A stretch of 64,000 bases of DNA from Deltaproteobacteria bacterium Ga0077539. GTDB taxonomy: Bacteria > Myxococcota_A > Polyangia > Polyangiales > Ga0077539. The notes under the pieces are model-generated. The model saw only the letters and a program-made list of their open reading frames with translations. It was not told the origin of the DNA and did not search any database. The position numbers and the translations under genes were made by a program. The stretch lies in assembly GCA_001465015.1 (NCBI GenBank), contig LNEO01000197.1, positions 31,937-95,936 on the forward strand, read 5' to 3'. This document shows positions 40,154-52,104 of this stretch, in pieces. Numbering within the stretch: the stretch's first letter is position 1; each line of letters begins with the position of its first letter.

Positions 40154-41266
40154 GTGCTCGACACGCTATACAGGCTCACGCGACCGCTGTTCTTCGCGAT
40201 GGACCCCGAGCGGGCGCACGAGCTCGTCGCGTCGGCGCTCGGGGCCGTGCATCGTCGCCCGTCGCTGAGCGCCGCCCTCGGCGGCGCAACGCGCGAAGAG
40301 CTCGCCGTCACTGCGTTTGGTCGAACCTTCTCGAGCCCCGTGATCGTCGCGGCCGGGTTCGACAAGCACGCCGCGATGTACAACGCGCTCTACTCCCTCG
40401 GCTTTGGCGGCGTCGAAGTGGGGACGATCACCGCGCACGCCCAGCCTGGCAACGATCGACCGCGGCTGTTTCGGCTCGTCCAAGACCGCGCGCTCGTCAA
40501 TCGCATGGGCTTCAACAACCACGGTGCTGCCCGCGCGCGCGAGGCCATCATGCGCCACCTCCCTGCGCCGGGGCTCGTGCTCGGAGTCAACCTGGGCAAG
40601 TCCAAGGTCACTCCCGTCGAGAGCGCCGCGGACGACTACGCCGAGAGCGCGCGATTGCTCGGGCCGCTCGCGCACTATCTCGTCGTCAACGTCTCGTCGC
40701 CAAACACGCCGGGGCTTCGGTCGCTGCAGGCCGTCGACGCGCTCGCAGGCATCGTGCGCGCTGTGCGCGGCGCGCTCGAGCGCGAGGGCGTGTCGCCTCC
40801 CTTGCTCGTGAAGATCGCGCCAGACCTCGCGGACGAAGACATCGACGCGATCGCCGACCTCGCGCTCAGCGAGAAGCTCGCCGGAATCATCGCCACCAAC
40901 ACGACCATCGCGCGCGACGAACTCTCGCTGAACACCGCGCGCGACGCGGTGGTCGCCATCGGCGCGGGAGGGCTGTCGGGAGCCCCGTTGCGCGAGCGGT
41001 CTCTCTCTGTGCTGCGACGGCTCCGCGCGCGCGCTGGCGGTCGGTTGACGCTCGTGGCCGCGGGCGGGATCGAGAGCGCCGAGCACGCGTGGCAGTCGGT
41101 GCTCGCGGGCGCGACGCTCGTGCAGGTGTATACGGCGTTTATCTACGGCGGACCGTCGCTCGCGAGAAAGATGACTGTGGGGCTCCGAGCGAAGCTCGAG
41201 ACGAGCGGGTTCTCTCGGTGGGACGACGCGGTCGGCGCTGGCGCTCCACAGACCCCGCGGCAGTAA
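40154..41266 (+). CDS. pyrD: Dihydroorotate dehydrogenase (quinone), class 2
   Basis: The fourth step of pyrimidine synthesis, with electrons passed to quinone at the inner membrane. 370 residues from GTG 40154. The N-terminal helix (LYRLTRPLFFAMDPERAHEL) typical of class 2 precedes the FMN barrel. Conserved sites are AAGFDKHAAMYNAL, the substrate-binding NRMGFNNHGA and the catalytic serine in VNVSSPNTPGLR, with FMN-phosphate contacts in the late GGIESAEHAW. It is monocistronic with a terminator hairpin after it. Confidence 0.95.
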   Translation: MLDTLYRLTRPLFFAMDPERAHELVASALGAVHRRPSLSAALGGATREELAVTAFGRTFSSPVIVAAGFDKHAAMYNALYSLGFGGVEVGTITAHAQPGNDRPRLFRLVQDRALVNRMGFNNHGAARAREAIMRHLPAPGLVLGVNLGKSKVTPVESAADDYAESARLLGPLAHYLVVNVSSPNTPGLRSLQAVDALAGIVRAVRGALEREGVSPPLLVKIAPDLADEDIDAIADLALSEKLAGIIATNTTIARDELSLNTARDAVVAIGAGGLSGAPLRERSLSVLRRLRARAGGRLTLVAAGGIESAEHAWQSVLAGATLVQVYTAFIYGGPSLARKMTVGLRAKLETSGFSRWDDAVGAGAPQTPRQ

Positions 41267-41283: not shown

Positions 41284-41310
41284 CGGGCGCGCGCTTCAGC
41301 GTCGCGCCCG
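41284..41310. terminator. Hairpin between pyrD and the AAA cluster
   Basis: CGGGCGCG and CGCGCCCG form a perfect eight-pair stem, extendable by internal CGC/GCG pairs. It covers the stop codon of the convergent 41296 gene. It could end transcripts from both directions, although no strong T-tract follows. Confidence 0.5.
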
Positions 41311-42150
41311 CTGGCCGAGCAGCGCTGTCCAGATCGTCCACGGCATCGCCGAAGGCAAGACCCATCCGCGAATCCACACGCGACCCGAGGCGTGCGACTC
41401 CATCGACCGGAGCAGCGCGAGCGCCGACGACGTGCCGTCTTCGCTGTCGATCCAAGGGATCGCCTCGATGATCGCGCGGTGGACGGTCACTCCGCGTTCG
41501 TCGCAGAGCCGCGAATACTCGCCAGCGTTCTTGAAGAGCGCGAGCTCCGTGGACGCGAGCTCCTCCCGTGGATCGTCGAGCTCGATGGCGAACGGTGAGT
41601 CGATCTTCCATCGAGACGCGCCCCGCGCCCACGCCCGACCCAGCGCCGTGGCCTCCTCCGCGCCGAGCGCGCCGCAGTGCCCTCGAAGACTCTCGCAGAG
41701 AAGATCGAGCGCCAGAACACTGCCGATCGAGGCGAGGCGATCGACGATCAACCGTCGCTCCCTCGCGCCCGCGCAGCGCCCATCCGCCAGCAGCGCATAG
41801 CACTCGGCTTCGTCGCTCGACGCCGTGAGCGTCGCGAGCGCGGCGCTCCACGGCAACGACGCTCCGTCGTCGGCCGATTCCTCAGCGATCCCCATGAGCT
41901 CGGAGAGGTCGATCGTCGCGACGGCCTCGGCCCGATCGACGACGCGGACGGGCGATTTGAATGTGTGTGTGTCACCGAGCATCGAGCGAAGCGCCTCCGC
42001 GCCGGGCGTTCGAAGCACCAGCGCGACTGATTCATCGAGACGATGGCTGACCGAAAGGCCGCGGGCCTCTACTGCCCGCGCGATCTGCAGTGCCAGCGCG
42101 CGATCGCCGTCCACCGTCTCGATGAACACCCGACGAGCTCCCGAGGTCAT
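41296..42150 (-). CDS. Hypothetical protein with TIR-reminiscent N-terminus, last gene of the AAA cluster
   Basis: A 284-residue protein. The ATG at 42150 overlaps the stop of the ClpA/B-like gene (ATGA). The first 60 residues (RRVFIETVDGDRALALQIAR, then AVEARGLSVSHRLD) follow the strand-helix-strand pattern of TIR domains, and a hydrophobic strand follows (VALVLRTP). The catalytic Glu of TIR NADases is not evident, so this could be a non-enzymatic TIR-like or unrelated Rossmann-like fold. The remainder is helical (SSDEAECYALLADGRCAGAR). No exact family is recognised. Confidence 0.6.
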   Translation of the reverse strand: MTSGARRVFIETVDGDRALALQIARAVEARGLSVSHRLDESVALVLRTPGAEALRSMLGDTHTFKSPVRVVDRAEAVATIDLSELMGIAEESADDGASLPWSAALATLTASSDEAECYALLADGRCAGARERRLIVDRLASIGSVLALDLLCESLRGHCGALGAEEATALGRAWARGASRWKIDSPFAIELDDPREELASTELALFKNAGEYSRLCDERGVTVHRAIIEAIPWIDSEDGTSSALALLRSMESHASGRVWIRGWVLPSAMPWTIWTALLGQRARR

Positions 42151-44447
42151 GGCGCACGCCACACGACGTGGCGATCCTCGAGGACCGCTCGGCGGCGCGC
42201 GCGCGCGTCGACGAGGGCGTCCGCGAAGAGCTCTCGCTCGCAGCGCGCGCGGAGCTCTCGCGCGCTCGACGATCGCTCGGAGATCCAGTCGAGCACCGCC
42301 TCGTCGACAGAGAGCGCCGCGCCGGCCTTCGCGAGCTGCGCGCACGAGTCGCTGACGAACCGATGGACGAGCGCTCGACGAGCCTCGCGATCGAGCGCGT
42401 CGAATCGAACGGTCTCGTCGATCACCGCCTCGAGCGAGCGTCCCAGCATCGATGCGTCAGCGGCTCGAGGTCCGGGCGACGGACGGGGATCGCCGAGGAA
42501 AAATCCTGTGCGTTCGACGTCGCTCGTCGTGCTGACGAACGCGATCGTCGCGCGCCGCAGGTCCGCGCTGTCGCCGCGGCTGTCGACCAGGGCGCCTTCG
42601 CGGATCGCGCTCGCCACGAGCGCTCTCGCGTCAGGGTGAGCCAACTCCGGTTGATCGAAGATCACCAGCGCGTTGGGCTGCGCTCGCAGCGCGCGCAAGA
42701 GCGGCGCTCCGTCGTCGTAGCCGACGAAGCCCGCGGCGGTCCCCGTCAGCTTCGCGAGGTCGTGACGCTCGGCAACGCTCGCGAGGTCGAACTCGATGAC
42801 CGGCCGCTCCGACGCGCGAGCGAGCGCGCGGAGCGCCGTGTGTTTTCCGACCGATGGTGGCCCAACGATCCAGAGCACGGCGCGCGGACGACGCGCCTCT
42901 GGGGCGCGCAGCGCCTGCAGCGCGAACGCCGACGCGAGCATCGCCGATCCCTTGGACTGCCCGAGCACCGTCGAAAAGAGCGACTCGCGCACGCGAGCGA
43001 GCAGGTCGCCCGGCGCCTCGGTGAGCTGCGCGACCGACACCCTCGCGAGGCCCGCGACGGCTTCGATCAGGATCGCGTCGTCGACTTCGCGCATTCCTCT
43101 GCGGGCCGCGCGCGCGCACGCGCGGTCGAGCACGTCCACGCCGACGTCGGGCATTCGTCGATCCGCCAGCCAGCGCGCCGACAGCTCGATGACCGCGCGC
43201 ACACGATCCAGAGCGAGCGCGACGCCGTGATGCTTCGCGAGGTCTTCTGCGGCGCTCGTGAGCATGCGCTCGAGCGACGCCGCGTCCGGCTCGCGCACGG
43301 AGATGCGCTCGAACCGTCGCGCCAGCGCAGGATCGCGCTGAATCGAACGCTCGTAGCCCTCTTCTGTCGTCGCTCCGATGAGCGAAATCTCGCCGCGCGC
43401 CATGGCTGGCTTCAACACTTCGGCGATCGACAGCTGGCCCGCGCCGCCGTTGGCTGACACCAGCGTGTGCACTTCGTCGAGAAAGAGGATGATCCCCCGA
43501 TCTCCGCGGGCCTCTTCGAGAAGGCGCTGCAAGCGGGCTTCGAGCTCGCCGCGCAGCGACGTCCCCGCGGTCAGCGACGCGACGCTCACTTCGATGACCC
43601 GCGCCCGTCGCAGCGGCGCCGCGACGCTTCCCTCCACGATCCGCTGCGCGAGTCGCTCGACGATCGCTGTCTTTCCGACGCCGGCGGGGCCGACGAGGCA
43701 CGGGTTGCTCTTTCGCTTGCGGCAGAGCACGTCGACGAGCGCGTCGAGCTCCTCGTCTCGACCGGTGATGCGATCGAGCTTTCCCTCTCGCGCGAGCTGA
43801 CAGAGGTCACGCCCAACCCGGTCGAGCACGCTGTCGTACGTGGCGCGCGTGCGCTGAACGGCGGCGAGCGCCGCGGGCGAAGGACCTCGATCCGCCGACG
43901 GGGTGCCGTCGATCGCCGCGCGAAGCGCCGCGGCCCCAGGCGCCAGCGCAAGCTCGTCGAGTAACGCCAGCGCCGCGCCCCGCGCGGCCGACGGCAGCGA
44001 CGGCCGTGACCCGAGCGGCACGAGCGCCTCGATCGCAGCTCGATCTGCGCCAGTGCGGGCGAGGGCGAGGGCGAGGTTGGTTCGGGCCGACGCGTCGTGC
44101 GCGTCGAGCTCGAGCGACCGTCGGCAGTGAGCGATCGCAGCGTCGTAGCGACCGATCGCCACTTCGACTCCGCCGAGCCGCGCCCACATCGACGCGTCGG
44201 TGATCGCGAGCTCGCACGCGCGTTCGGCGCTCTCGACGGCGCGAAGAGGAAGATCGAGATAGAAGAGCGCACGAGACAACAGCGAGTGCGCCGTCGCGCA
44301 GTCGGGGTCTTCGCGGATCCAACGCTCTGCGCGTTCGCGGGCGAGCGCGAACTCTCCTTCGAGCACGAGGGCTTCGATCTCGGTTTGCTCTCGCGGCGCG
44401 TCGGCCGGTCGACTGGCCGCTGACGGGGCTGGCTTTTTCCGCGTCAT
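42147..44447 (-). CDS. TPR-ClpA/B-like double AAA+ ATPase with degenerate second module
   Basis: A 766-residue protein. I placed the start at 44447, where the ATG overlaps the upstream stop (ATGA). The N-terminus (about 20-150) has TPR helices instead of a ClpN domain. Module 1 has Walker A GPAGVGKTA, Walker B IILFLDEVHTL and an Arg finger in LARRFERI; its pore-loop Tyr is replaced (AGTSLRGELEARL). No ClpB middle domain is present. Module 2 has Walker A GPPSVGKHT and the pore loop GFVGYDD, but Walker B is IFDQPELAHPD, with Gln where Clp proteins have Glu, and the Arg-finger position is changed (EAVIDE). Probably an unfoldase-like machine with one working ATPase ring. Confidence 0.85.
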   Translation of the reverse strand: MTRKKPAPSAASRPADAPREQTEIEALVLEGEFALARERAERWIREDPDCATAHSLLSRALFYLDLPLRAVESAERACELAITDASMWARLGGVEVAIGRYDAAIAHCRRSLELDAHDASARTNLALALARTGADRAAIEALVPLGSRPSLPSAARGAALALLDELALAPGAAALRAAIDGTPSADRGPSPAALAAVQRTRATYDSVLDRVGRDLCQLAREGKLDRITGRDEELDALVDVLCRKRKSNPCLVGPAGVGKTAIVERLAQRIVEGSVAAPLRRARVIEVSVASLTAGTSLRGELEARLQRLLEEARGDRGIILFLDEVHTLVSANGGAGQLSIAEVLKPAMARGEISLIGATTEEGYERSIQRDPALARRFERISVREPDAASLERMLTSAAEDLAKHHGVALALDRVRAVIELSARWLADRRMPDVGVDVLDRACARAARRGMREVDDAILIEAVAGLARVSVAQLTEAPGDLLARVRESLFSTVLGQSKGSAMLASAFALQALRAPEARRPRAVLWIVGPPSVGKHTALRALARASERPVIEFDLASVAERHDLAKLTGTAAGFVGYDDGAPLLRALRAQPNALVIFDQPELAHPDARALVASAIREGALVDSRGDSADLRRATIAFVSTTSDVERTGFFLGDPRPSPGPRAADASMLGRSLEAVIDETVRFDALDREARRALVHRFVSDSCAQLAKAGAALSVDEAVLDWISERSSSARELRARCERELFADALVDARARRRAVLEDRHVVWRAP

Positions 44448-45331
44448 TGGTGGGCTCCCATCAGCGGGCTCGCGCCGCAGCTCGGGCAGCGTCCGCGGCT
44501 CGCGCACGACCCGCAGCTCCAACGGCCGCACGCCTCGCACCACAGCGCGCACCGATCGCACCGCGCGTCACCGCAGCGACCGCAGACCGTAAACCTGCGT
44601 CGCACCGCTTCGCAGCGGGCGCAGCGGGCGCCGTCGTTCACGCTCGCAGCGTAGGCCCTCCATTCGATGGTCGCCGCGTGCCCACCACACGAGACCCGCC
44701 AGCGGCTCACGCGTCGCTCGAACCCGAGGTCGACCAGGGCGAGGGGCGTCACGGTCATCGTCGGCGCGAGCGCTTCGACCGTTCGATCCACGAAGATCGC
44801 TCCAGCTCTCGCGACGGCCTCGCGCTGCGAGGAGATCGCTTCGTCGACGCAGTCGAGCGCGTACTCGACAGCCCGGTCACGGCCGGCTCGCGCGCGCTCG
44901 ATCTTCTCGGCGATCGTCCTCGCGAGCGAATCGCGGGCGTGCGCTTCGACGGCGTTTCTCGCGCGATCGAGCAGCGCGGTCGCGCGAGCCACGTCGATGC
45001 CCGTGAGCTTCATCGCCCGCATTTGCGCCAGCGATTCGTCGAACGCCGTCAGGTCTCGCGCGACGAGCTCCTGCTCTGGACGATCGTCGTCGAAGCTGAC
45101 CGTGTACCGCTGGCCGACCTCGAAGTCCGACAGTCCGACGTCGAAGAGCGCCGTCGAGCGACGGAGGGTCTCGACCTTGTCCTCCGAGGCGCGGGTCACA
45201 CGAGCGCCAGCGAGCGCCGCGGGTCTCGCGATCGTCCGCTCGGGGGCGGTCGATATCGCGCGGGCGCTCGCGCACAGTCCTGGCGTCGGTCGCACGAGAG
45301 CGAGCATCGGTTCTTTCAGGGCGAGTAGCAT
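44444..45331 (-). CDS. Zinc-ribbon protein of the AAA cluster
   Basis: A 295-residue protein, or 287 if ATG 45307 is used; both starts have weak ribosome sites. The body is helical (LTAFDESLAQMRAMKLTGID and ATALLDRARNAVEAHARDSL). The C-terminal 55 residues hold many CxxC pairs (CARCEAVRRRF, CGRCGDARCDRC, CEACGRWSCGSC, CPSCG), forming two or more treble-clef or zinc-ribbon sites. No catalytic residue is visible. Its stop overlaps the start of the ClpA/B-like gene, so the two are probably cotranslated. It may bind the AAA+ partners, nucleic acid or another protein. Confidence 0.75.
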   Translation of the reverse strand: MLLALKEPMLALVRPTPGLCASARAISTAPERTIARPAALAGARVTRASEDKVETLRRSTALFDVGLSDFEVGQRYTVSFDDDRPEQELVARDLTAFDESLAQMRAMKLTGIDVARATALLDRARNAVEAHARDSLARTIAEKIERARAGRDRAVEYALDCVDEAISSQREAVARAGAIFVDRTVEALAPTMTVTPLALVDLGFERRVSRWRVSCGGHAATIEWRAYAASVNDGARCARCEAVRRRFTVCGRCGDARCDRCALWCEACGRWSCGSCASRGRCPSCGASPLMGAHQ

Positions 45332-45340
45332 CCTGTACCG

Positions 45341-45405
45341 CGAAACGCGCTGCGCGTCCCGCGGCGATCACCGCGCATCGACCGCAGAAATTCCAGCGCG
45401 TTTCG
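45341..45405. repeat. 12-bp inverted repeat in the only gap of the AAA cluster
   Basis: CGAAACGCGCTG (45341-45352) and CAGCGCGTTTCG (45394-45405) are perfect inverse copies. The arm at 45405 abuts the stop of one zinc-ribbon gene and the other lies about ten bases before the next gene's start. The 41-base interior contains a smaller CGCGG/CCGCG hairpin. Confidence 0.75.
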
Positions 45406-46206
45406 TCAACTCTGCGGCGCGGCGTCGAGCCACCGCTCGAGTCCTCGACGCTCGCCTGCCGCGACCGCATCGGGCCGGGAAACTCGAACGGTCCTCGTGC
45501 TCAGAAGCGCGCCGAGCTCGGCGTCACGCGCGGACGGACCAGCGTCCGCTCCGCGAAATCGCGCGAGAAACGCTCTCCGCGAGCCGAGCTCTTCCGGCGC
45601 CACGAGCGAGTACAACGCGAACGCCTGTTCGATCGTCGCGACGCTCTCTGGCGGCGCGCCGACGACGCAATATCGAGCGTTGGAGACCGCTCGCTGCGCC
45701 GCTCGATCGAGCGAGAGCGCGTCGTCCGAGACGAACACCTCGCCGTTCGACCGCTCGCCGGTGTCGAGCTCGATCGCGTCGATCGCCGCGCGCAACGCTT
45801 CGCTCCCGACGCATCGGATCGCGATCGCGCCGCGGAGTTGAACCAGCGCGCGGACGAACGCGAGCGCGGCCTCGATCCAGCGCTCTGCGGTCGGCGCGAT
45901 CAGCGCGCATCGCCCGTCGCACGCCTCGAGCGCCCTCCGGGTGTTCGAATCGAGCTCGGGGGTCGGCGCGTCGCACTGCGCCCTCAGCGATTCGAGCTCG
46001 ACGAGCGAGCATTGCGACAGCGCCACGTTGCGGTGAATCACGGTCAGCTCGACGGCCGCAGCGGCGCTGACCGGTTCATGTCCGATCGCGCTGCCGCACT
46101 GCGCGCAAGCGCCGCGCGAAGCACGTTCGAGCCACCCGCAGCGCGCGCAGCGGGCGAATCGACCTCGCGGGTCGATCAGCGTCTCTGCAGATCCCTCACC
46201 GCTCAC
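45406..46206 (-). CDS. N-terminal zinc-ribbon protein of the AAA cluster
   Basis: A 266-residue protein. The GTG at 46206 overlaps the Ycf46-like stop (GTGA); the track start extends into that gene. Residues about 15-40 carry a zinc ribbon (CARCGWLERASRGACAQCG). The rest has a Rossmann-like feel (RCALIAPTAERWIEAALAFV; RYCVVGAPPESVATIEQAFA). It may be a second P-loop-like or mono-ADP-type fold without a Walker motif. No recognised family. Position directly after the AAA+ gene suggests it is an adaptor. Confidence 0.65.
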   Translation of the reverse strand: MSGEGSAETLIDPRGRFARCARCGWLERASRGACAQCGSAIGHEPVSAAAAVELTVIHRNVALSQCSLVELESLRAQCDAPTPELDSNTRRALEACDGRCALIAPTAERWIEAALAFVRALVQLRGAIAIRCVGSEALRAAIDAIELDTGERSNGEVFVSDDALSLDRAAQRAVSNARYCVVGAPPESVATIEQAFALYSLVAPEELGSRRAFLARFRGADAGPSARDAELGALLSTRTVRVSRPDAVAAGERRGLERWLDAAPQS

Positions 46207-47691
46207 AGCGCGACTCGACCCGTGTTCGCGTCGATCGCGGTGCTCGCTGGTCGAGTCCGTCCGCGGGCCCACTTGCGGAGGGCGTCGATCGACTCCCTCG
46301 CGGTCTTCGAGAGCGAGACCGTCTCGCCGACCGCTCGCAAGAGATCTCGGAGTTCGAGCTCACGCTGCTCGGAGAACGCATAGAGCAACGCTCCCACCAC
46401 GCATTGCTCGAGCTCCGCGCCGCTGAAGCCATCGGTGCGCGAAGACAGTTCGTCGAGGTCGAACCTCGCCGGCTCGCGCCCCCGTCGCGAGAGGTGAATC
46501 GACAGCACCTCCGCACGCTCGAGCCGCGACGGAAGGTCCACGAAGAACACCTCGTCGAAGCGCCCTTTGCGCAGGAGCTCCGGCGGAAGTGCGCTCACGT
46601 CGTTCGACGTCGCGATCACGAAGACATGAGCAGCACGGTCCTGCAGCCAGGTCAGTAGCGCGCCGAACACGCGAGACGCGGTGCCGGCGTCACCGCCCCG
46701 CGTCAGGTCGCCGAACGCGCGCCCGAGCTCGTCCAGCCACAACACGCACGGCGCCGCCGCTTCAGCCTGCGCGAGCGCGCGGCGTACGTTCGCCTCGCTC
46801 GCGCCGACGAGGCCGTGAAACAGCCGTCCCACGTCGAGCCGAAGCAAGGGAAGGGACCAACGCCGAGCGATCGCTCGCGCGCACGTCGACTTTCCCCCTC
46901 CCTGTACGCCCACCAGAAACACCCCTCGGGGCGCGTCGACGCCAAACGCGCGCGCCTCGTCGGTCCACGCTCGAGCGCGCAGGTCGAGCCAACGCTTGAG
47001 CGCGTCGAGCCCGCCGAGTTGATCGAGTCCGCGCTCTGGTTCGATCGGCTCGAGCAGGGCTCCGTCGCTCGCGGCGCGGTCTCGCTCGATCCGGACTTCG
47101 TCGAGCGAACGCTCGTCGAGCGAGCCGTAGCGGACGACGGCCCGCCGGATCGCCAGTGAAAATGCGTCGCAACGAAGCCCCCGCGCCGCCGCCGCGAGCC
47201 GAGGCGCGAGCGCGACGCTCGTCGGGCCACGATCGATTTCGGTGACGACCGCGGCGAGCTCGTCGTGCGAGGGAGGCGTCACGAAGACCTTCGCGCAGTC
47301 GCCTCGCAGCTCGGGGACCGGGCACGCGACAGGAGCGCAAAAGACCAGGGATTTTCCTGCTGCTGCGAGGGGCGCGCGAAGCTCGCGCAGCCTTCGTACG
47401 ACGACGGCTTGCGCGAGAAACGGGTGGATATCCAGCGCCGCGAGCACCGCCCGCCCGTCGGCGCGGGCAAACGCGTCGAGCGCCGCGATCGGATCGGCCG
47501 TCTTGCTGTCGACCCCGCTCGATCGAAGCGCGTGCAATCCCCGAACGCAGGACCACCGCTGCATCGCGCGACCCGTCGCGGCGCAGACACGCTCGAGCGC
47601 CGCCTTCTTCGGCCTCGAGCCAGACGAGCGGGGCGCCAGCGCGGAGCGCCAGAGAGAGCTCTTCCTCCCAATCAACGGGGGCTGTGGCCAT
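46203..47691 (-). CDS. Ycf46-like AAA+ ATPase, interrupted by an apparent one-base insertion
   Basis: A roughly 495-residue AAA+ protein. The N-terminus reads MATAPVDWEEELSLALRAG and LVWLEAEE from ATG 47691 in one frame. The rest, from AALERVCAATGRAMQRWSC onward, is in another. The two join near 47600-47611 at GAAGAAGGCGGCG, where removing one G restores E-E-A-A-L-E-R. The long track ORF upstream of this is a shadow of maf and yggS. The ATPase module has Walker A GVQGGGKST, Walker B CVLWLDELGRAF, IATSNDVSALPPELLRKGRF and RFDEVFFVDLP. The extended DIHPFLAQAVVVRRLREL region matches Ycf46-type proteins of cyanobacteria and proteobacteria. The first gene of the cluster, it overlaps the next (GTGA). 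Confidence 0.85.
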
Positions 47692-47798: not shown

Positions 47799-48434
47799 AT
47801 GCAGTCGATGCGGCAACGTATCAGTGTAGAACACCCGCTCATGCTCGGCTCGCGCTCGCCGAGGCGCGCGCAGCTGCTCGCGCAATGCGGCGTTCCCTAC
47901 GAGGTCTTCGCGACGGACGTGGACGAACGCCTTCAAGCAGGCGAGCGGCCAGACGCGCTCGCGACGCGCCTGGCGAGGCAAAAGGGCGCAGCCACCGTGA
48001 GCGCCTTTCAAAAGAGCGGACGTGACCCGAGCGCGCATTGGTTTCTTTGCGCCGACACGATCGTCCACGTGCAAGGCGAGCTGCTCGGCAAGCCGCGAGA
48101 CATTCAAGACGCGCGTCGCATGCTTCGTCTGCTCTCGGGTCGGACGCATTTCGTGACGACCGGCTTCGTCGTGCACAGCGCCGATGTCTTCGATGCTCCC
48201 GTGTACGCCGAGACGACCGCGGTGACGTTTCGTCCCGTCGCTGAGGACGAGGTCCAGCGCTATGTCGCGAGCGGCGAGGGCACCGACAAGGCTGGCGGGT
48301 ACGCGATCCAAGGGCTCGCGAGCGCGTTTTGCGAGCGGCTCGAGGGCTCGTACGCCAACGTCGTGGGGCTCCCTGTGCATCGCGTCATCGAAGTGCTCCT
48401 CGACCTCGGAGCGATCGACGGATACCCGCTGTGA
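47799..48434 (+). CDS. maf: Maf-family nucleotide pyrophosphatase
   Basis: Hydrolyses non-canonical or pyrimidine nucleoside triphosphates to monophosphates; linked to septum regulation in Bacillus. 211 residues with LGSRSPRRAQLLAQCG near the N-terminus, ADTIVHVQGELLGKP, FVTTGFVVHSADV and the signature KAGGYAIQGLASAFCERL. The first ATG may be at 47799; an internal Met precedes LGSRSPRR. It is divergent from the AAA cluster and overlaps yggS (GTGA). Confidence 0.92.
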   Translation: MQSMRQRISVEHPLMLGSRSPRRAQLLAQCGVPYEVFATDVDERLQAGERPDALATRLARQKGAATVSAFQKSGRDPSAHWFLCADTIVHVQGELLGKPRDIQDARRMLRLLSGRTHFVTTGFVVHSADVFDAPVYAETTAVTFRPVAEDEVQRYVASGEGTDKAGGYAIQGLASAFCERLEGSYANVVGLPVHRVIEVLLDLGAIDGYPL

Positions 48435-49687: not shown

Positions 49688-50713
49688 TCAGTCCGCGTCG
49701 TCTTCCGGTGACGATGGCGTCGGGGCGCTCGATCGCCGCAGGACGGACCCGACGAACGAGCCGAGATCGAGGCCGAGCAGACCGCTCACCGTGGCGCGCG
49801 CGGCCGCGACGCGCGTCGCGGACTCGAGCGCAGGAGCCACGCGGTCCATCAGCGATCCGAGCATGCCTCTCGCTGTGACGATCGCCGAGCGCGCGACATC
49901 CGCCCCGAGCGCGGCGACGACCCAGGGCGGCGTCGGGTCGATTGCGAGCTGGCCCTCGTTGAACGCTCGCGACCACGCTCCCGCTTGCTCGCTTCGAAGG
50001 AGCGCTTCGAGGGTCGAGGTCTTCGTGTGTACTCCGACATGAACCGACGCGAGCTCCCGATCGATCCATGCGCGCACGGCTTGCGTGTCGCGACGCGCGT
50101 CGCCGCTGAGCGCGCCGACTGCGTCGACGATCCGTTCGGTTCCGATGATCGTGAGCGGCGCGCCCACCGGTCTCGCGACCGCGATCGCGGCGTCGAGCGT
50201 CGAATCGTCGCGAAACAGCAGCGCAAACGCGGCCCTGCCCGCGGGCAGGACGAGGTCTGCGGTCGCGTCGACCACGGTTCGCGTCGGTCGCGGCAGGCCG
50301 CCTGGGACGAGGTCGGGCCAGAAGAACAGCCTTCGTTCATCGACGATCTCTCGAACCGCGTCGAGCAGCAGCAGCCATCCCTCGCGCGACGGCTCGTCGA
50401 GGTCGACGCGCGCTCCCCAGCGGTCCAGCAACAGCTCGAGCGCGCCCTCTTCGATCGCGATGACGAAGCGCGCGTCGAACTGCTCGGCGAGCGCTTGCAT
50501 CGAGCTCGCGCCACGCCAGGCCGTCGCTTCGCAGCGTCCCCTGTGCGAGTGCACGGCCGCGACCACCGCTGCGTCGCGAAACACCAGCAGCAACAGCCCG
50601 CCTGGCGCGCGCTCGCGCGCTGCGTGAGCGTTGGGAGGACGCGACGCGAACCCAGGCGCGAAGATCGTCACGAGGCGGTGCCAGCTCTTGGCGTCGAACC
50701 CTTCGAATCGCAT
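49688..50713 (-). CDS. Hypothetical protein of the PpiC operon
   Basis: A 341-residue soluble protein; its ATG at 50713 shares a base with the upstream stop (TGATG). The sequence has alternating strands and helices (GLLLLVFRDAAVVAAVHSHR; RFVIAIEEGALELLLDRWGA; AAFALLFRDDSTLDAAIAVA) that look like an alpha/beta fold. The C-terminal part is Ala/Gly-rich, ending in an acidic Pro tail. No signal peptide or catalytic motif is visible. I do not recognise the family. Confidence 0.6.
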   Translation of the reverse strand: MRFEGFDAKSWHRLVTIFAPGFASRPPNAHAARERAPGGLLLLVFRDAAVVAAVHSHRGRCEATAWRGASSMQALAEQFDARFVIAIEEGALELLLDRWGARVDLDEPSREGWLLLLDAVREIVDERRLFFWPDLVPGGLPRPTRTVVDATADLVLPAGRAAFALLFRDDSTLDAAIAVARPVGAPLTIIGTERIVDAVGALSGDARRDTQAVRAWIDRELASVHVGVHTKTSTLEALLRSEQAGAWSRAFNEGQLAIDPTPPWVVAALGADVARSAIVTARGMLGSLMDRVAPALESATRVAAARATVSGLLGLDLGSFVGSVLRRSSAPTPSSPEDDAD

Positions 50714-52104
50714 CACGACGCCCGGTCCTCTCGTCGGTGAAACACTGCGACCGCGCCTGGCTGCATCGTGTGTTCGCCTCCTGGAATCCAGCGCTGGCGG
50801 GGGTCGCGGACGGTCGCAGGCGTCATCGTCGTCGAGAGCAGGACGAGCTGTCCGTCCGAGCGGCGCGCGAGGACCGCGCGCGAGACGTCGCACTCGAGCT
50901 CGAGCTCCGAGAGAGTTTGGTCCCCGCGAACCTCGTGGTGGTCGAGCAAGCCGAACTGCGCGAGCCAGCCGCGCGAGATCGGCGACAACCACCCTGATGG
51001 TCGTGCGACGGGCGTCGCGTCTCCTTCGTGCACCGTCGGCGCGATCGCGCTGCACTCGTCGAACAGCGCGCGCCACCGCTGCGCGACTCGTTGCGCGACG
51101 CCCTTGGGGTCGAGCAACGATCCCACCCATCCTTCGCCGCACCAGGCGTAGCGCAGGACGATTTCGCTCGCGCCGGCGGCGATCGCGACGCGCGCCACCG
51201 CCGCGGCGTCTCGGTTGCGAAGCGGGCGCGCGAACGGCGACGAGCCGCACTGAACGTCGAAGCGCGCTCCGTGCGCGCTCGTCGCGACGGCGTCGCTTAC
51301 CTCGGCCCACAGCGCCTCGCTCCCCACGGAGGTGAACGGCAGCGCGCAATCTACTGGAAATCGAGCGGCGATCGAGTGGGCTGCGGGCGCGGCGGTGCGC
51401 GGTCCGATCAGCGAGCAGCGGAGCTTGTCCTCTGGCGCGCCGCTCTCGAGCGCCGCGTTGGCGAGAGCCTCGTACCACGCCAGCGCGATGCGATCGGCGC
51501 GCTCGGCGCGCTCGGCGCGCTCGGCGGGAACCGGCCCGGCGTCAGGGTGGCGGTCTTCGTCGATCGGGTCGCGAAGGGGGGCGAAGGTTCCGGCGCCCAC
51601 GGTAAGCGAGTCGATTCGGTCGAAGCCGCTCTCGCCGACCGCGCGGGTCGCGGCGCGAATCCACGCCGCGCAGCGATCGATGAAGACACGGCTGGCGAAG
51701 GATGGCGCCGCAGTGGGGGTAAGGGAGATCGGCTCGATCACCGCGCCCCGCCGCGCGTTGCGCGCGATGACGGCGGGGTCGTCGATCACCGTTCGAGGAA
51801 CGCCGAAGCCCGGCTCTCCCTCGACGCACCGCGGTCCCAACCGCACACGCACGGCGAGACCCGCGCGCCTGGCGGCGTCGATCGCGCCGTGAATCGAGCG
51901 AGCGCCGCGCTCGCGCGCGTCGAAGTCGAAGCGTCCAGCGCTGGCTTCGTGTTTGGACCACACCAGCGGCAAATCGACAGCGTCGAAGCCGAGCTCGCGA
52001 AGCGTCGCGAACCCGACGTCGAGCGCGGCGGGGTCGATCGTGTCGAACCGCACCATTGCTGCGCGAGTCGCGCGCGCGGTGCTGGTCAATGAAGCGTTGC
52101 TCAT
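50713..52104 (-). CDS. Glycoside hydrolase-like protein (GH35/GH42-type barrel)
   Basis: A 463-residue protein without a signal peptide. The first 120 residues (LRELGFDAVDLPLVWSKHEA, then RFDFDARERGARSIHGAIDA and GLAVRVRLGPRCVEGEPGFG) closely follow the first strands of GH35/GH42 beta-galactosidases: a Trp-x-x-His-Glu-type motif, a FDF turn and an arginine-rich strand. The usual catalytic glutamates are not clearly placed. The C-terminal part (SGWLSPISRGWLAQFGLLDH) may be a beta-sandwich. It could be a sugar-binding or inactive relative. The stop overlaps the next start. Confidence 0.6.
   Translation of the reverse strand: MSNASLTSTARATRAAMVRFDTIDPAALDVGFATLRELGFDAVDLPLVWSKHEASAGRFDFDARERGARSIHGAIDAARRAGLAVRVRLGPRCVEGEPGFGVPRTVIDDPAVIARNARRGAVIEPISLTPTAAPSFASRVFIDRCAAWIRAATRAVGESGFDRIDSLTVGAGTFAPLRDPIDEDRHPDAGPVPAERAERAERADRIALAWYEALANAALESGAPEDKLRCSLIGPRTAAPAAHSIAARFPVDCALPFTSVGSEALWAEVSDAVATSAHGARFDVQCGSSPFARPLRNRDAAAVARVAIAAGASEIVLRYAWCGEGWVGSLLDPKGVAQRVAQRWRALFDECSAIAPTVHEGDATPVARPSGWLSPISRGWLAQFGLLDHHEVRGDQTLSELELECDVSRAVLARRSDGQLVLLSTTMTPATVRDPRQRWIPGGEHTMQPGAVAVFHRREDRAS

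Follow-up and report, generated by a model that had tools for sequence, protein, structure and literature searches.

The window, by which we mean the whole 64,000-nucleotide stretch analyzed here, comes from a fragmented assembly (9.7 Mb in 486 contigs) and carries, between the plus-strand genes pyrD and maf, five minus-strand open reading frames (ORFs), denoted A to E, that occupy positions 47691-41296:

40154 to 41266, plus strand: pyrD (dihydroorotate dehydrogenase), a flanking gene at one border of the insertion
41296 to 42150, minus strand: gene E, predicted N-terminal Rossmannoid domain, HEAT-like helices and C-terminal alpha/beta domain (structural model, fold searches)
42147 to 44447, minus strand: gene D, TPR repeats and two Clp-type AAA+ modules (Pfam, NCBIfam and sequence comparison)
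44444 to 45307, minus strand (alternative start ATG at 45331; start assigned by homology): gene C, helical region and C-terminal multi-cysteine, zinc finger-like domain
45406 to 46206, minus strand: gene B, predicted zinc ribbon and SNF2-type RecA1-like lobe (hhalign, AlphaFold2 model, Pfam)
46203 to 47691, minus strand: gene A, Ycf46-type AAA+ ATPase (PF00004, 9.9e-27; AAA_lid_3), frame-broken here
47799 to 48434, plus strand: maf-family gene, the flanking gene at the other border

The stop codon of A overlaps the start codon of B within a GTGA (46206-46203), and ATGA overlaps join C to D (44447-44444) and D to E (42150-42147). The sole gap, between B and C, measures the 74 bases given in an earlier note on this DNA if C starts at the ATG at 45331, but 98 bases from the ATG at 45307, which the relatives favor. 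The cluster of five genes on one strand with overlaps at three of the four junctions, as described in that note, is real, and its gene order recurs in three further genomes; gene A, however, is not a single ORF here, its start ATG leading into the wrong frame, a break that had been missed. Scans for promoters, terminators and Rfam families were uninformative. Beyond maf, on the minus strand (49688-52056), a GH35-like ORF (Pfam, 1.6e-06) adjoins zapA together with an orphan ORF that has no Pfam match; ORFs resembling this pair are found in the same order in G003, a genome that lacks the cluster.

When 57 relatives were searched with B, C and E, each query recovered, with strong E-values, the same three other genomes, all of them MAGs: G001 and G002, from the same genus as the window genome (G000), and G006, from another genus of the same family. 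All five genes are present there in identical order, always between pyrD and maf. The identity to the window copies (in G001/G002/G006, respectively) is 82/63/50% for A, 76/57/43% for D, 63/39/33% for E, 53/36/29% for B and 55/35/22% for C. A profile of E had no match beyond the four carriers among 183 genomes of the order, 377 genomes of the phylum and the genome_contigs collection (about 85,000 species, one genome each), and in the genomes searched, B, C and E were not found apart from one another at convincing scores; remote relatives of these three proteins could be missed because of their fast evolution. Thus, with regard to the co-occurrence of the five families, previously proposed as a check, E is indeed accompanied by A, B, C and D wherever it occurs in the genomes searched, but B, C and E have no homologs elsewhere in these genomes. 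Each of A and D has paralogs elsewhere in the genomes.

In four of the six non-carriers from the same family (G004, G005, G009 and G010), pyrD and maf are adjacent (separated in G009 and G010 by about 33 bases), and in the remaining two (G003 and G007), they flank one unrelated ORF. These two ORFs (L090, 10086-10934, and L095, 5491-6372) encode proteins of about 282-293 amino acids, and both genomes are located near the carriers in the tree; because the junction holds a single ORF other than the cluster there, genes may be readily gained between pyrD and maf. The four carriers form one clade with a support of 1.000 in an unrooted FastTree phylogeny of lon, pyrD and maf. Because the carriers comprise one clade and the non-carriers lack the cluster at the pyrD-maf junction, the history appears to involve either a single gain or retention with loss elsewhere, and loss in other lineages could account for the clade-wide pattern. 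We rejected a mobile island: neither border stretch, taken singly, contains direct repeats, and single-protein searches yielded no plasmid match for E or C, no phage match for B, and no match of the E or B profiles to viral contigs.

All five genes evolve under purifying selection, with pairwise dN/dS values (G000-G001) that are rough because synonymous sites are close to saturation but are all below 1 (0.12-0.47); B, C and E are the fastest in the operon (0.34-0.47), and the values for the flanking genes are 0.04 for lon, 0.05 for maf and 0.19 for pyrD. That B, C and E evolve so fast could point either to conflict or to weak constraint. The gene order maintained from the within-genus to the between-genus level, the coupled starts and the single insertion locus back the earlier proposal that the genes act as one set, and the gene arrangement supports a translationally coupled operon that would function as a single unit.

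Gene A belongs to a family that, on the basis of its motifs, we take to be Ycf46. Ycf46-type ATPases, for which no established function is known to us, occur widely among bacteria and in plastids. The protein contains a Walker A motif GVQGGGKS, a Walker B motif WLDE, both intact, and the signature RKGRFDE, and the intact copy from G001 (500 amino acids) is homologous over its full length, including the N-terminal domain and the GVQG-GKS and RKGRFDE motifs, matching phrog_8638 over residues 9-491 (1.2e-125). The Ycf46-like assignment thus extends over the entire protein as judged from the G001 copy, the window copy being broken at the N-terminus. The protein is about 36-44% identical to other myxobacterial Ycf46-type copies, from which it differs in forming its own clade and residing in a five-gene operon. 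In a midpoint-rooted and hence merely indicative tree, the operon-encoded A groups with the second Ycf46-type copy of the carriers. This second gene belongs to a different conserved neighborhood (L076-L079, that is, G000:C75, G001:C24, G002:C10 and G006:C54, as well as L083), where, by Pfam assignment of the L077 (G001) genes, the upstream neighbor encodes a T2SSE/MshEN-type ATPase in L076, L077, L079 and L083 (L078 ends at a contig edge), a GAF/sigma-54-type regulator is located downstream in L076-L079, and a Ser/Thr kinase is present in L076-L078. The other myxobacterial loci with Clp-like and Ycf46 genes that we retrieved are not second copies of the operon.

In the window, translation from the ATG at 47691 yields MATAPVDWEEELSLALRAGAPLVWLEAEE and then runs out of frame, with the homologous remainder in another frame; alignment of the DNA with that of G001 and G002 indicates that exactly 14 bases are absent at about 47602-47603. 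If this deletion is real, the operon could be decaying in this genome and the set would no longer be functional there, an explanation that we consider unlikely but that deserves serious attention, given that the bases are missing in comparison with two relatives of the same genus and that A opens a coupled operon. On the other side, all the sequence beyond the break is under constraint (dN/dS of 0.12 to G001; 22 vs 15 lineage-specific changes, as in the other genes), an internal ATG at 47564 leaves an ORF of 453 amino acids that includes the AAA core and ends at the stop at 46203, and an assembly error is possible in an assembly of 486 contigs. Because the remainder is strongly constrained and carries a balanced share of the changes, the loss is either recent or an assembly error.

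For B, the previously described N-terminal zinc ribbon is present (CxxC-x10-CxxC, residues 20-37), but most of the protein (approximately residues 84-261) corresponds to an apparently inactivated SNF2-type RecA1-like lobe that had been missed. Among the four B proteins, Pfam detected Zn_ribbon_3 in three, weakly (best E-value 0.0022), and PF00176 (SNF2-rel_dom) in two, below the threshold (0.053). The comparison with a profile of SNF2 domains taken from six genomes is clearer: hhalign aligned 60 columns of B in the region of motif III with a score of 44.3 (1.3e-5), compared with 18.6 for the best of 40 column-shuffled controls and 13-24 for the other four families of the cluster, the common segment being GTPVEN...L..F..P..LG...F..RF. 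The AlphaFold2 model of B (pLDDT 76.5, from a four-sequence alignment) retrieves SNF2 proteins from the PDB in most of the top matches, including CSB (Foldseek E-value 4e-4), and superimposes on the Sulfolobus SWI2/SNF2 core (1z63) with a VIA-align Z score of 11.5 over 163 residues at 3.7 A. Compared with SNF2/Swi2 ATPases including RapA, B shares the RecA1-like fold and the L..P..LG...F..RF segment that follows motif III and differs in the N-terminal zinc ribbon and in lacking a second lobe, for which the 266 amino acids of the window copy leave no space, as well as motif I (GKT/GKS) and motif II (DEAH), which are absent from all four sequences. B therefore cannot be an ordinary SNF2 motor and, by sequence and model, consists of a zinc ribbon and an inactive SNF2 first lobe.

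The zinc ribbon reported at the C-terminus of C is represented by a cysteine cluster, with 11 invariant cysteines in the C-terminal part across the four genomes; C has no significant family match in Pfam, NCBIfam or further profile searches, and a phylum-wide search with C found nothing convincing beyond the carriers. The idea that C is the zinc-bearing C-terminal tail of an SNF2 protein was dropped, none of the 16 loci with SNF2 hits having an ORF with at least four CxxC motifs. The TIR-like start ascribed to E in the earlier note finds no support: no TIR domain matched any of the four members in Pfam up to an E-value of 10 or appeared among the PDB fold-search matches listed. The model of E (pLDDT 79, also from four sequences) has mostly BRCT domains among the top Foldseek matches, at non-significant E-values of 0.03 or worse; hhalign against BRCT domains gave 16.7 vs 16.8 for the best shuffle, and VIA-align favored other, generic Rossmannoids at a Z of about 7. 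The N-terminal domain is Rossmannoid and perhaps BRCT-like, and the helices after it are HEAT-like, with a weak HEAT match.

Gene D conforms to the initial description, combining TPR repeats with a double AAA+ architecture of the ClpA/B/V type. The best NCBIfam matches are ClpV1 (3.5e-108) and ClpA (5.8e-105), with scores below the cut-offs (363 of 885 bits for ClpV, 352 of 993 for ClpA and 333 of 1232 for ClpB); the branch is long, and the placement among the Clp proteins is unsettled in the tree. D shares with the ClpA, ClpB and ClpV Hsp100 proteins two AAA+ modules in the Clp-type order, the Walker motifs of the first nucleotide-binding domain (NBD1; GPAGVGKT and LDE) and an NBD2 pore loop resembling G-Y/F-V-G-Y. 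Unlike them, it contains TPRs in place of the Clp N-domain, has lost the pore-loop tyrosine of NBD1 (SLRGELE instead of KYRGEFE) and shows altered Walker motifs in NBD2. In all four carriers, the NBD2 Walker A reads GP(P/S/A)SVGKH, with histidine replacing threonine, and Walker B is FDQPE, LDNPE or LDHPE, with glutamine, asparagine or histidine replacing glutamate; the other homologs compared have GPTGVGKT in NBD2, and DE where the segment was recovered (the copy on contig C129 of G000 is cut at the contig end). With these signatures changed in all four carriers, D does not have two catalytically competent AAA+ modules, and ATP hydrolysis by the second ring is most likely lost. Because NBD1 has no pore-loop aromatic left, substrate threading by D may be abolished altogether.

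The protein-remodeling role suggested in the earlier note still gives the best reading. We propose, as a tentative reading that we rate as quite possible though short of probable, that the operon encodes a lineage-specific, ATP-driven remodeling machine with two motors, the Ycf46-type A and the Clp-derived D, and three non-catalytic adaptors. Under this scenario, the operon would go back to a single gain (or retention) in the ancestor of a sub-clade of myxobacteria, and the five proteins would form a complex. The first ring of D would hydrolyze ATP, and the second would only hold the shape or bind nucleotide; B, C and E would serve as adaptors or scaffolds that bring to the motors a client, probably a nucleic acid-bound or transcription/repair-type complex. 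Clp N-domains are where adaptors bind, and the TPRs of D, at the same place, could be the docking site. The Pfam, NCBIfam and PADLOC matches include no membrane, nuclease, protease or NADase family that is specific to one of the proteins B, C and E. The composition, two AAA+ proteins, one with intact motifs and one with a dead ring and a TPR head, and three proteins that show no recognizable catalysis, fits a remodeling machine with its own adaptors better than an effector-bearing system; against such a machine stand the lack of functional relatives for B, C and E, the fast evolution of these three proteins and the lost NBD1 pore-loop aromatic of D. A more specific and, in our estimate, rather doubtful proposition is that the AAA+ machine is of a novel kind, its Ycf46-type motor and its TPR-Clp motor, one ring of which is dead, acting on nucleic acid-bound complexes via adaptors built from a retired SNF2 lobe and zinc domains.

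The operon might instead be an anti-phage or other conflict system, in line with the stress or defense role raised in the earlier note; the inactive SNF2 lobe and the zinc proteins would then detect the nucleic acid of invaders, and signaling or remodeling would fall to the AAA+ motors. We deem this improbable. This alternative stays alive because BREX PglZ and DndH contain inactive, rapidly evolving Swi2/Snf2 P-loop domains that have been proposed to act as invader sensors (PMC12839542). B resembles these domains in being a fast-evolving SNF2 P-loop fold without ATP-binding motifs within a multi-protein system; in contrast to the shortened second P-loop domains inside larger proteins described there (PMC12839542), it is apparently a first lobe, with a zinc ribbon, encoded by a separate gene. 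PADLOC detected no other BREX or Dnd parts and no system with a fitting set of components, giving weak, mostly generic AAA matches (IetA and TRIP13 models) to A and D and none to B, C or E. The evolution of B, C and E, several times faster than that of the flanking lon and maf, is compatible with conflict, as is the weak match of the AAA domain of A to IetA; IetAS likewise combines an AAA+ ATPase with a partner gene, but the IetA models match the AAA core of A only (77.9 bits; 76.8 of the 510 bits needed in NCBIfam). Against a conflict role, Pfam, NCBIfam and PADLOC reveal no effector (nuclease, NADase, protease or pore), the neighbors are housekeeping genes, and there is no sign of horizontal spread, the operon being confined to one site in one clade and none of the single-protein searches having matched plasmids, phages or viruses.

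ClpV recycles the type VI secretion sheath, and by analogy, the operon could encode a factor dedicated to assembling or disassembling a single large structure; TssH/ClpV1 is the top NCBIfam model for D, and the Clp N-domain is lost, but the score is far under the ClpV cut-off and level with that of ClpA, and no secretion genes were noticed among the neighbors, which makes this very unlikely. A chance neighborhood of unrelated genes, despite the few carriers from a single family and the paralogs of A and D, is largely refuted and scarcely credible, the order having been kept while E drops to 33% and C to 22% identity, with coupled starts and without B, C or E being convincingly found apart.

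Neither in PADLOC nor in searches of the open-access literature did we find a described system of the same composition as the proposed remodeling machine (a report in a subscription journal could be missed), so that an operon with two remodeling motors and three fast-evolving, non-enzymatic partners is apparently undescribed so far. A Ycf46-type ATPase tied to a Clp-type partner and defined adaptors would provide a concrete handle on the function of Ycf46. The operon would also illustrate clearly how enzymes, here an SNF2 lobe and a Clp ring, were apparently turned into structural parts within a single operon, and a natural comparison for its gain is available in the non-carriers from its family.
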